This document shows, in pieces, positions 52,858 to 63,699 of a stretch of 64,000 bases of DNA (within the stretch, counting starts at the first letter, position 1; each line of letters begins with the position of its first letter). The notes below the pieces were generated by a model. It worked only from the letters and a program-made list of their open reading frames with translations. It was not told the DNA's origin and did no database searches. The position numbers were made by a program, and so were the translations under genes. This stretch comes from Corallium rubrum (taxonomy: Eukaryota; Cnidaria; Anthozoa; Scleralcyonacea; Coralliidae). The DNA is taken from positions 9,179,759-9,243,758 of the forward strand of contig OZ036000.1 in the NCBI GenBank assembly GCA_964035015.1, in the 5' to 3' direction.

Positions 52858-53290
52858 GTCGACTACGGTGGCCCATAAGGGCCACGGCAACATAAAAAGT
52901 TCTGCGGCAACATAGAAAATTATACGGTAATATAGAAAGTTCCACGGTAATATGGAATGTTCTGCGGAAAGATACAAAATTCCACGGCAAAATAAAAAAT
53001 TCAGCCACGGCAAAATAAAAAATTCAGCCACGGCAAAATAAAAAATTCAGCCACGGCAAAATAAAAAATTCAGCCACGGCAAAATAAAAAGTTCAGCCAT
53101 GGCAAAATAAAAAATTCAGCCACGGCAAAATAAAAAGTTCAGCCACGGCAAAATAAAAAGTTCAGCCACGGCAAAATAAAAAATTCAGCCACGGCAAAAT
53201 AAAAAATTCAGCCACGGCAAAATAAAAAATTCAGCCACGGCAAAATAAAAAATTCAGCTACGGCAAGATAAAAATTCAGCCACGGCGGAG
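52858..53290 (+). repeat. Left terminal inverted repeat with 23-bp subterminal array
   Basis: GTCGACTACGGTGGCCCATA, a graded series of diverged units (CGGCAACATAAAAAGTTCTG, CGGTAATATAGAAAGTTCCA) to about 52980, then about 13 regular copies of CAGCCACGGCAAAATAAAAA+ATT. The last copy runs into the transposase 5' UTR 25 bp before its ATG. Confidence 0.95.
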
Positions 53291-54284
53291 TAACTGGGTA
53301 CTACATCATGCCAATATGGCGGACTTAGAAAGCGAAGAAAGCTTAATTCAGTATTATTTTAACCGAGGGTATTCTCAAGAAGAAATTCTATCACTCCTTC
53401 TCGGTTGCATAATGTAGAAATTAGCAAAAGGACATTAAAGAGAAGATTAAGATCGTATGGTCTCAGAAGAAGAAATGCCGTGTATGATGCTGATGCTTTG
53501 CGAGAGAGCATTCGTGCTATTTTAGATGGGCCCGGGTGCTTAGGCGGTTATAGAACAGTCTGGCACACTCTACATCTTCAAGGCATTCTAGTACCTAGAA
53601 CCGTGGTTCAGGCAATACTAAAGGAACTGGATCCTGAGGGAAGTAGGCAACGACGAGCTCATCGTTTAAAAAGAAGAGTGTACCATAACAGTGGACCCAA
53701 CTTTGCTTGGCATGCGGACGGCTATGACAAGTTGAAGCCATATGGCTTTCCCATTCACGGATGCATAGACGGATGGAGTAGGAAAATTCTTTGGCTTCAT
53801 GTTACCCGATCTAACAATTTGCCCGACAACATTGCCACTTATTTTCTTGATGCTGTGGAAGAATTTGGAGGCTGTCCTGTCAGTTTAATAACTGATCTGG
53901 GTACAGAGAATGGGATAATGGCTGGTATTCCAGCTTTTTTTAGAGAAGATTCAAGTAGCCACAGATATGTATCATCCCCACAGAATCAAAGAATTGAGGC
54001 ATGGTGGTCTATGCTAAGGAAAACTATGACAGGCTGGTGGATGAATTTTTTTTAAGGACTTGTTGGAACAAGGTGAGAAGATTTATAAGCTATTAATGGG
54101 AAAGAATCCTCCCCCTCCCCACCCCCCGATATATGCACATCCACTTTACTAGAAATACATGAACGCAATAACCCCTCACCGGCTTTATATCGGGAAACAG
54201 GTCGACCTCACATCCAAAATTAAGGATTATCCTTAATTGTCAACTTGCCTAGAATTAAGGATAATCCTTAATTTTAAATGAAAA

Positions 54285-54410
54285 CTCATCCCCCATACCC
54301 CAACCCCTAACCATAACCCCCCGGTAACCCTAAACCTAACCAAAAAACCCCGGTAGCCCTAACCCTAACCAAAAAACCCCGGACCCTAAACCTAGTCACA
54401 ACCCTCCGGA
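54285..54410. repeat. Degenerate CCCTAACC-like repeats
   Basis: Loose repeats of CCCTAACC/CCCCGGTAACC in the transposase intron. Followed at 54490-54590 by TTAAGGCCATGTCTTAATT duplicates and at 54220-54270 by AATTAAGGATAATCCTTAAT palindromes. Confidence 0.6.
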
Positions 54411-55235
54411 AAAATGACCCACCTCTCAAACCCCGACCACAACACCCCTCTATGTGTTCAAGTTTAACATCCCGCTTGTGGGACAGATAAATTAAGGCCA
54501 TGTCTTAATTGTAGCCCTATTTTAAAATTAAGGCCATGTCTTAATTCGAGCCCTATTTTACAATTAAGATATACACTTAATTTTGGTAAGAGATCGTGTT
54601 GCGGGAAATGTCGGCCTCGCGATCCCGGCGCCATTTTGAAAGTAAGAGCCCCCCCGGAAATTAGCCCTCTCGTCCTTGCGACCCTCGGGCTCCTGTATTC
54701 AATTACTCTTGGCCTTCGTGTGACCTTTAATTAACTTTATATTGTTATCTATCTATATAAATAATATTTAGTTAAGTAAACAAGTAATTTACTTTAGAAA
54801 ACGGGCATGAAATTCTTTGACCACGAGGTTATTAAAACTTCAGTACGCGGATACTACGGGTAAAAGTCCGGGTTTTACATTTCTCGATTTTGTGACACAT
54901 TTGTTTATGGAAAAAGATGGATAATAATTTCGGAACTACGCATTGTTGAAATACATCGGGTACGTATGTTGTTAGAAATTTTATAAGCTTTCATTTGGTA
55001 TATAATTCAAATTTTAGTGTTACCTGTAACTTTTTAAAATGTTCAAATTGTTTGTAAAATAAGAATTATATAATGGAAATGGCCTGCTCACAAGTGTTAT
55101 AGAATTTTGGATTTTGTTTTTAAATACTAAAGCACAACCCTGAACTGCATATTTGTGGAAAAGTTTGCAGATTTCTAGTTGAAGTAGAAAAACGTTTTTG
55201 GTTCATACCTTTTAAACATATGAAAAGATAATGAA

Positions 55236-62200: not shown

Positions 62201-63156
62201 GCGGATCATGCGCAGAACGGACTGGAGATCACCTTTAAGTCTCTTCGGATAACTTATATGTCTTTAAATATGTTAAATCTCTTTTGAATTAATTTTCAAA
62301 TGTTTTTAAAACATTTTGCGCATTATAAAACGCATTTAAAGAAAATTATGTCTAGCGGTCCGTACCTCTTGTATTCCTATGGTCACTTGGCTCACTCCAC
62401 TCATTCTTACTTTCCAGTAAATCCTCATATTTCACTAGGTCGCCGGTTTCGCATAGGTAAAGAACAATGTTCTTATAGTCTTTCCCATACTCATGTCGAT
62501 ACTGCTCGAGATCAAAAAAGTGTTTTGTATCACCTGGTAAAAACTGGGCATTAGTACCATCTTCGTACACCAAAGAATAAGACTTTGGAGGCATCAAAAT
62601 GCCGGTCAAACTTTTTCCACTTCTCCACACCTTCATTCAACAATTGCTTGCAAGTGGAAGACTTTGGTACACGGATAGGTAGACGTTTTCCTCGCTTGCT
62701 TTTCAGCGATCCATCAACAAGTGTTTTTATACCAATTTGGATATTTACGTCTTGACTTTTATTTGCCTTTTTCTTTTTCCATCTGAACTCTTCACCGCCA
62801 CGCTCTTTGCTAGTTTTGGCCTTAATATAATCACTCAGTGGTACGATTCGACGTTTTTTTCCTTCTTCGATAGTGGATGTTGGTCGTCCAAAAACAAATG
62901 AAGAAGCGACTTGACTTGAGCTGCTCGATGTAGGAGAGTCACGAGGTCTAGCTGCAGCCTGATCACATTTGCAATTCCAACAATACCTAGCGTCAAGTCT
63001 AACTTTTACCGAACAGCCACTACAAAACCTAACACAACAGTAAAAATCCTCAGTACATCACATAAAAATATGCTACTATATATAATAATTCAGTTTGCAA
63101 ACTTACACAGTATCTTCTGATTGGTCTCCTCGTTCTGAACTTTCGCCTTCGGCCAT
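59296..63156 (-). pseudogene. Transposon-borne HECT E3 ubiquitin ligase with zinc ribbon and UIM (three exons; three single-base shifts)
   Basis: Exons 63156-63107, 63028-62411 and 60668-59296; phases agree and the total is 679 aa once the shifts are allowed for. Start MAEGESSERGDQSED. Exon 2 opens with a four-Cys zinc ribbon (FCSGCSVKVRLDARYCWNC), then a Ser-rich and a Lys-rich stretch, then SYSLVYEDGTNAQFLPG. Exon 3 has a UIM-like helix (DDEEELAAAIAASIEDQ) and a HECT domain: VRVTFSGEDAVDNGGPKREY, WSVLQGGPGPR, MLVFITGADAVPPLGF, and the thioester Cys in PSSSTCSLSLYLP (codon 59398-59400), ending QGFGKC. G2E3-like. Shifts: extra base near 62590, A5 near 59957 (one short), T5 near 59627 (one extra). 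Presumed role is ubiquitylating host or transposase proteins; substrate unknown. Confidence 0.9.
61356..61690. repeat. TA, GATA, GGTG and GATG microsatellite series
   Basis: TA to 61380, GATA/GACA to 61530, GGTG to 61597, GGAT to 61636, then diverging GGATAT. In the HECT-gene intron. Confidence 0.95.
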
Positions 63157-63214
63157 GTTTGTTGGAAGAGTAGAATGATCACGTGAGATACGCTTAGCCT
63201 GGCTCGCGGGAAAA

Positions 63215-63699
63215 TCTGCTTCGGCCGTGGCTGAATTTTTTATTTTGCCGTGGCTGAATTTTTTATTTTGCCGTGGCTGAATTTTTTATTTTGCCGTGGC
63301 TGAATTTTTTATTTTGCCGTGGCTGAATTTTTTATTTTGCCGTGGCTGAACTTTTTATTTTGCCGTGGCTGAATTTTTTATTTTGCCGTGGCTGAATTTT
63401 TTATTTTGCCGTGGCTGAATTTTTTATTTTGCCGTGGCTGAATTTTTTATTTTGCCGTGGCTGAATTTTTTATTTTGCCGTGGCTGAATTTTTTATTTTG
63501 CCGTGGCTGAATTTTTTATTTTGCCGTGGCTGAATTTTTTATTTTGCCGTGGCTGAATTTTTTATTTTGCCGTGGAATTTTGTATCTTTCCGCAGAACAT
63601 TCCATATTACCGTGGAACTTTCTATATTACCGTATAATTTTCTATGTTGCCGCAGAACTTTTTTTGTTGCCGTGGCCCTTATGGGCCACCGTAGTCGAC
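63215..63699 (-). repeat. Right terminal inverted repeat with 23-bp subterminal array
   Basis: About 15 copies of GCCGTGGCTGAATTTTTTAT+TTT (inverse of the left unit) from 63222 to 63575, then the same graded units and terminus as the left end. The first HECT exon starts about 60 bp inside it. Confidence 0.95.

Follow-up and report, generated by a model that had tools for sequence, protein, structure and literature searches.

A Corallium rubrum transposon with IS3EU/GingerRoot features that pairs a transposase gene with a convergent HECT ubiquitin ligase gene

This study analyzed a 64,000-nucleotide stretch of the Corallium rubrum genome (contig OZ036000.1; hereafter, the window), in which an earlier reading of the letters alone (the sequence-only reading) had proposed a cut-and-paste-like transposon carrying its own HECT ubiquitin ligase. 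The termini, the target site duplications, the pairing of the two genes, and the mobility of the unit supported this proposal. We consider it highly probable that the element in the window is a fairly recent, now decayed copy of the IS3EU/GingerRoot superfamily and that its lineage is a two-gene unit comprising a transposase and a convergent zinc-ribbon/HECT E3 ligase. The unit has defined termini and 6-bp target duplications, its two genes are paired in many subfamilies and copies, it is mobile, and both genes are under purifying selection.

Termini and gene content of the element

The element begins with TACGGTGGCCCATAAGGGCC and is bounded by inverted termini of approximately 423 bp that are 97-98% identical (Table 1). 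The arms at 52852-53274 and 63283-63705 paired at 98% across 423 nt, which is far beyond chance, and the inverted termini enclosing the gene pair were thereby confirmed. A gapped alignment of the termini yielded 425 identities in 436 positions, a count that includes a few flanking bases and the duplication. Each terminus consists of approximately 118 bp of degenerate 20-bp units passing into a 23-bp tandem array, in which 12 units on the left and 15 on the right have at least 20 of 23 matches. The termini are thus built from repeated units, which accounts for the earlier length estimate of 440-480 bp; the inverted termini are real, but shorter than that estimate. The hexamer GTCGAC stands at both flanks as a perfect target site duplication, and identity is lost at 7 bp. 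Because GTCGAC is a palindrome, the inverted repeat appears 6 bp too long; the bounds proposed earlier (52858-63699) correctly located the element but included both duplications. Coral CMITEs were considered as a source of the tandem-repeat termini and rejected, as they are described, in the available text, as piggyBac-related miniature inverted-repeat transposable elements (PMC2872659).

Two convergent coding genes, as claimed, were found within the element, and no third was seen in a scan that covered seven of the other long frames inside, which gave no Pfam match at E <= 0.01. The plus-strand gene matched the Pfam family named "Integrase core domain" (rva_4), together with an HTH_21 match that remained below its cut-off. 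The full D-D-E triad that had been claimed was located by eye at codons 53717, 53894, and 53996, and its residues were invariant in 23 aligned proteins. P0002, an open relative of the transposase, is 87% identical, and a PDB profile search with the transposase returned no match.

The HECT domain scored 40.5 bits against a cut-off of 23.9. The catalytic cysteine of HECT ligases sits in a TC motif of the C-lobe; the corresponding codon was found by eye at 59398-59400 on the minus strand, in the motif SSTCSLSLYLP, as the sequence-only reading had stated. The zinc ribbon was likewise found as a CxxC..CxxC pattern at the start of the HECT protein. At the proposed ubiquitin-interacting motif (UIM), a conserved short AIAASL-like motif is present, with A and I nearly invariant, but it has no Pfam UIM match. 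The conserved N-terminal domain had no Pfam match, and the splice sites of exon 2 were assigned by eye. The relative P0122 reads open, is 98% identical to exon 3, and has window-identical residues upstream of the exon 3 splice site; because it reads across this site, its source is probably a close copy read as unspliced DNA.

The description of the ligase as G2E3-like was not sustained. G2E3 has N-terminal fingers of the PHD/RING type. Neither the window pieces nor the relative P0124 gave a PHD match, on which ground G2E3 membership was rejected, and a zinc ribbon was found instead; a truncated relative, P0139, showed a PHD match below the cut-off. Among the solved structures compared, which did not include G2E3, the nearest HECT domain was that of AREL1 (6jx5, E 1.2e-17).

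Table 1. Positions in the window of the element, its termini, and its genes
Feature	Position	Strand	Basis
Whole IS3EU-type element, 10,830 bp, TACGG..CCGTA	52864..63693	+	Terminus pairing and gapped alignment
Left target site duplication, GTCGAC, 6 bp	52858..52863	.	Identical to 63694-63699
Right target site duplication, GTCGAC	63694..63699	.	Identical to 52858-52863
Left terminal inverted repeat	52864..53286	+	Alignment to right terminus; TRF for 23-bp tandem array 52982-53286
Right terminal inverted repeat	63270..63693	-	Alignment; 23-bp tandem array 63224-63575 (TRF)
Transposase, first part, PF24764 core with D-D-E	53316..54073	+	PF24764 E 6.8e-19; 224 of 249 residues identical to P0002
Interruption of transposase, 4.2 kb, GT..AG ends, intron or insertion	54074..58250	+	Frames of relatives; self-comparison
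Transposase, C-terminal part	58251..58635	+	85% to P0002 residues 257-384
HECT gene, exon 3, UIM-like motif and HECT domain	59296..60668	-	PF00632 E 3.3e-10; 460 of 466 residues identical to P0122
HECT gene, exon 2, zinc ribbon CxxC..CxxC and conserved N-terminal domain	62396..63028	-	Matches P0124 147-352 and P0138 55-193 in pieces
HECT gene, exon 1, start codon at 63156	63107..63156	-	Sequence and splice-site inspection only

Pairing, selection, and mobility of the two genes

We searched the window's own genome (474 Mb, 312 contigs) for related loci. No near-exact further copy of the window terminus was present among the matches listed, and three related termini scoring 75-77% were identified on C176, C121, and C39. 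The C176 and C121 loci, which are 98.8% identical over 3.2 kb, carry a transposase and a convergent HECT gene, C121 showing only the C-terminal part of the transposase. The far ends of these two elements were not seen because parts of both loci read N.

At least 107 transposase matches were obtained with P0002 as the query (107 of 1,310 candidates scored), and the best 30 loci were taken with 1.5 kb on either side. At 22 of these 30 loci, a HECT match lay on the opposite strand no more than 1.5 kb downstream; the same two profiles gave an upstream match at one. One of the two profiles was built from six extended loci, so that L020, L034, L038, and L041 match it by construction; these four match the other profile too. 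At L030, a third profile, and also P0138, gave an upstream match to the zinc-ribbon part, which lies outside the locus's own left terminus and was excluded from the upstream count. With HECT genes seen in longer stretches at L018, L036, L043, and L044 and by coordinates at L040, L028, and L019, the total reached 29 of 30 loci, L027 being the remaining one.

The loci read at length were 12 of the plus-strand ones among the 30, chosen by strand and not by HECT content; L017 (the C176 locus already covered) and the near copies L024, L032, and L037 were left out, and the set includes L020 and L023, which are 98.9% alike. Hints of HECT had been noted at some loci before extension, whereas eight of those extended then lacked any HECT match. 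The results revealed a convergent HECT-family gene downstream of the transposase in all 12; these copies thus keep both genes. Both termini were in view at 10 of these loci, and nine of the 10 delimited relatives have perfect 6-bp target duplications, all different (GTTTTA, CTTCTG, GTTTTG, ATTATG, CATCGA, GGAATC, AAGAAT, AAGAGC, and CCCATG); a second candidate right end at L030, without a matching duplication, was left uncounted. The delimited relatives are 5.9-9.2 kb long. Subterminal tandem arrays of approximately 20 bp occur in eight of the 10, which indicates that such arrays are a family trait, and the left terminus TACGGTGGCC is present in 27 of the 30 relatives.

The association extended across the genome. 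Two HECT queries gave 92 and 78 rows, which yielded 121 loci after rows less than 3 kb apart on one strand were merged; three transposase searches, one of which included five extra loci picked by eye, gave 262 merged loci. The HECT gene is therefore not a single-copy orthologue, with at least 121 merged loci in this genome. An identified transposase lies within 12 kb of 81 of the 121 HECT loci, in convergent orientation in 78 of the 81, and all 61 HECT loci within 3 kb of a transposase are convergent. In 1,000 random placements, for which contig extents were guessed from the listed coordinates, the number near a transposase averaged 12.1 (maximum, 22) and the convergent number averaged 3.1 (maximum, 10). 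Conversely, HECT matches lie within 12 kb of 60 of the 112 transposases in two match lists, 56 of them convergent. These counts are lower bounds because the searches list the best candidates only.

Two further observations concern these loci. Stop-free HECT frames with 51-52% identity to the query and no listed transposase within 12 kb were found at C275:181225, C39:6850837, C224:1517888, and C51:5757387; they may be HECT-only elements, host-adopted genes, or genes with missed partners. A second transposase, 42% identical to P0002, adjoins the C176 element (L016 1178-2329; C176:236607-237758), with a GGCCACCGTA terminus nearby at 238302, an instance of clustering of IS3EU elements.

The HECT genes fall into two classes. 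The window, C176, and L036 belong to a canonical class, and L018, L020, L023, L031, L034, L038, L041, and L044 belong to a divergent class that matches the profile built in this analysis. Pfam was run on the HECT frames of 10 of the 12 extended relatives, three as pieces; at E <= 0.05, none of the six divergent members scanned (L020, L038, and L041 as pieces) matched the HECT family. The C-lobe motif reads STC or HTC in the canonical class and SAC, GAC, or RAC in the divergent class. The motif cysteine was present in all 11 frames that reach the motif, among 12 C-lobe frames examined; the frame of L031 ends earlier, and L030 was not among the 12.

We estimated the ratio of nonsynonymous to synonymous substitution (dN/dS) for both genes. 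Comparison of the window element with C176 gave ratios of 0.10 and 0.17 (transposase, in two parts) and 0.19 (HECT); for L034 versus L038, the ratios were 0.14 (transposase) and 0.15 (HECT). These values are rough, synonymous distances being high, and in five of the seven pairs divergence was too great for a ratio to be estimated. HECT and transposase distances were correlated across 11 elements with usable HECT frames (Mantel test, r 0.61; 14 of 20,000 permutations). With regard to mobility, the five copies L021-L025 share 99.4-100% identity across a stretch of 2,950 bp that takes in the 3' end of HECT, and their 300-bp left flanks do not match one another; L041 and L042 are 100% identical over 3,236 bp and also have unrelated left flanks. 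The comparison covered left flanks only, and allelic duplication within the assembly could account for some of the near-identical copies; unless it does, these copies indicate that the two-gene unit moved recently.

Relatives were also found outside this genome. The protein database yielded 1,704 transposase and 18 HECT relatives, and two of the transposase matches bore species names, both of corals (Oculina and Montipora). A fish protein, P0138 of Erpetoichthys, has the same architecture of HECT domain and zinc ribbon, the latter below the Pfam cut-off, and aligns to the window HECT gene in four pieces. The ligase frames of P0124 and L045 extend upstream into translated tandem repeats, as expected if the HECT gene abuts a tandem-repeat terminus. 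Scans of viral contigs gave no confirmed relatives. One contig filed under a sponge bacterial symbiont (L001; positions 268 and 1864-2888) contains an IS3EU-like transposase in several pieces and a TACGGTGGCC terminus; it is probably sponge host DNA, and it is too short to show a second gene.

Alternative readings and the proposed role of the ligase

Several observations weigh against the assignment of the window element to a two-gene IS3EU lineage. The window copy is frame-broken, and IS3EU membership was judged by features rather than by a tree with reference elements. The terminus on C39 stands alone, with no transposase or HECT match in approximately 20 kb inward, and L043 has no matching target duplication. 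No transposase is listed near 40 of the 121 HECT loci, some of which have intact frames; the weak matches among the 40 may be host HECT genes, and intact frames at about 50% identity are also among them. Of 84 long-match transposases, 45 have a listed HECT gene and 39 do not, although inspection revealed one at L033, L043, L045, and L046, which are among those 39. A deep split among the HECT genes is not mirrored in the transposase distances, which suggests module exchange or a rate change, and the HECT dN/dS of L020 versus L023 was 0.40 (transposase, 0.13), a value based on very few changes. The divergent HECT domains fall below Pfam detection, which makes E3 activity in that class less certain.

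The solo terminus and the unpaired HECT loci are what one might cite for regarding the HECT gene as a chance host passenger, or as a host orthologue merely surrounded by a transposon. This explanation was rejected and is scarcely credible: the gene occurs in the same orientation in every relative read at length, it lies beside transposases at two-thirds of its loci genome-wide, both genes are under selection, and near-identical copies stand in unrelated left flanks. That the window element itself is still active is very improbable as well; its closely matching termini and perfect target duplication would fit such activity, but five frame breaks and the 4.2-kb interruption of its transposase stand against open transposases in 13 relatives of the same assembly. 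It is somewhat less improbable, though still unlikely, that the second gene in many subfamilies is a HECT-derived regulator or structural partner, with E3 ligases confined to the canonical class that includes the window. The missing Pfam matches and the replacement of STC/HTC by SAC, GAC, or RAC are consistent with that possibility, whereas the motif cysteine is retained in seven of eight divergent C-lobes, namely all that reach the motif, and the HECT dN/dS of the L034-L038 pair is 0.15.

The transposon ligase is predicted to have E3 activity and to act in the nucleus. The mechanism we propose would involve a transposase encoded next to one terminus and a HECT ligase encoded convergently next to the other. 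By established HECT biochemistry, a host E2 would charge the C-lobe cysteine of the ligase with ubiquitin, which the ligase would then transfer to a substrate. The candidate substrate that we tentatively rank as most likely is the complex of transposase and DNA, or host factors assembled there, in which case the ligase would time the removal of the complex and repair after joining or would limit the amount of transposase. We prefer to place the ligase in transposition itself or in the turnover of the transposase, since it accompanies that enzyme across many subfamilies and is similarly constrained. The main rival, which is possible but rather doubtful, is that the ligase acts as an anti-silencing factor and ubiquitylates transposon-repressing host proteins, such as chromatin or small-RNA pathway factors. 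It has a precedent in fungal IS3EU elements carrying TET/JBP genes, which are thought to counter DNA methylation (PMC12730594, available text), and the HECT distances are larger than the transposase distances. An arms race would, however, predict fast evolution, and the HECT gene shows almost the same constraint as the transposase (dN/dS 0.15-0.19, two pairs with a usable ratio).

By its features, the element fits the IS3EU/GingerRoot superfamily. These elements are described as having TA..TA termini, usually 6-bp duplications, and an integrase-like DDE transposase without an HHCC domain (PMC10045372); the window element is alike in its termini, duplication length, and integrase-like DDE core, and no HHCC-type family matched. 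The window element differs in its second, HECT gene; in the main text of that description, as available, "HECT" and "ubiquitin" occur 0 times. Fungal IS3EU elements, according to the available text of PMC12730594, share TAYGG..CCRTA termini, 6-bp duplications, and an accessory gene opposite the transposase, an alpha-kinase gene in the fungi. Their accessory genes encode a kinase and a TET/JBP dioxygenase, the latter with a proposed anti-silencing function, whereas the window element encodes a ubiquitin ligase. Ginger1 is likewise an integrase-like transposon tied to the ubiquitin/SUMO system, but its OTU or Ulp1 protease, which removes the modifier, is a C-terminal domain of the transposase (PMC2836005, available text), in contrast to the separate ligase gene of the window element. 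Neither the window pieces nor P0002 gave an OTU or Ulp1 match at the C-terminal end of the transposase. AREL1-type ligases resemble the window ligase in their HECT domain; the latter differs in its N-terminal zinc ribbon, its conserved domain without a Pfam match, and its location in a transposon.

Transposons encoding enzymes that strip off ubiquitin or SUMO are on record, as Ginger1 illustrates, and no HECT-carrying transposon or systematic ligase-carrying lineage was present among the literature matches listed; Repbase entries lay outside these matches, and an earlier description may exist. We regard as evenly balanced the broader proposition that animal IS3EU elements are an ancient two-component system extending from cnidarians to fish, in which a self-encoded ligase is an obligate or nearly obligate partner of the transposase, ubiquitylation is built into transposition, and many annotated host HECT E3 genes are transposon genes. 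With its many natural variants within a single genome, the family offers a handle on the old question of how and why the ubiquitin system joins in the transposition of DNA. It also carries a warning for annotation: many genes resembling ordinary host ligases may be transposon parts, the expanded HECT families of genomes like this one may consist of mobile DNA, and Pfam missed the divergent HECT class in all six members scanned.

Decay, interruption, and surroundings of the window copy

Compared with the open frame of P0002, the transposase frame of the window breaks near 53400 and 54053; compared with P0122 and P0124, the HECT frame breaks near 62583, 59964, and 59641-59644. With these five breaks and the interruption, the window copy looks dead. 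An assembly error was rejected as the cause, and sequencing errors are unlikely, because an open transposase frame was seen in each of the 13 relatives examined from this assembly. An in-frame stop was present in 16 of the 107 transposase match rows, including that of the window.

In the same 13 relatives, the transposase is one uninterrupted frame. The earlier description of both genes as multi-exon thus applies to the HECT gene but not to the transposase of these relatives, and the 4.2-kb interruption seems specific to the lineage of the window copy and is probably young. With its GT..AG ends, it may be spliced as an intron. Around the interruption (54066-58260), AAGGTG was noted by eye on both sides at the GT/AG borders, as in introner-like intron gain; this match is partly explained by the splice consensus alone. 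Self-comparison revealed a nested inverted-repeat element at about 54673-56357 inside the interruption, beside other repeats. The arms of this nested element lie at about 54673-55044 and 55794-56357, with pieces 85-95% alike, and segments of the interruption have further matches elsewhere in the window.

The surroundings of the element contain further repeats. The right flank (63700-63998) is a reading frame whose similarity to endonuclease/exonuclease/phosphatase sequences stays under the Pfam cut-off; it may belong to a retroelement hit by the transposon insertion. Sequences of the long interspersed nuclear element (LINE) type occupy 47943-52396 and 44816-45625; one frame of 648 aa has a GDSL-esterase match that does not reach the Pfam cut-off, a second of 746 aa is of the endonuclease/reverse transcriptase type, and another piece was recognized by eye as reverse-transcriptase-like. 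A 201-bp tandem repeat in five copies, with 96% matches, lies at 24388-25368.

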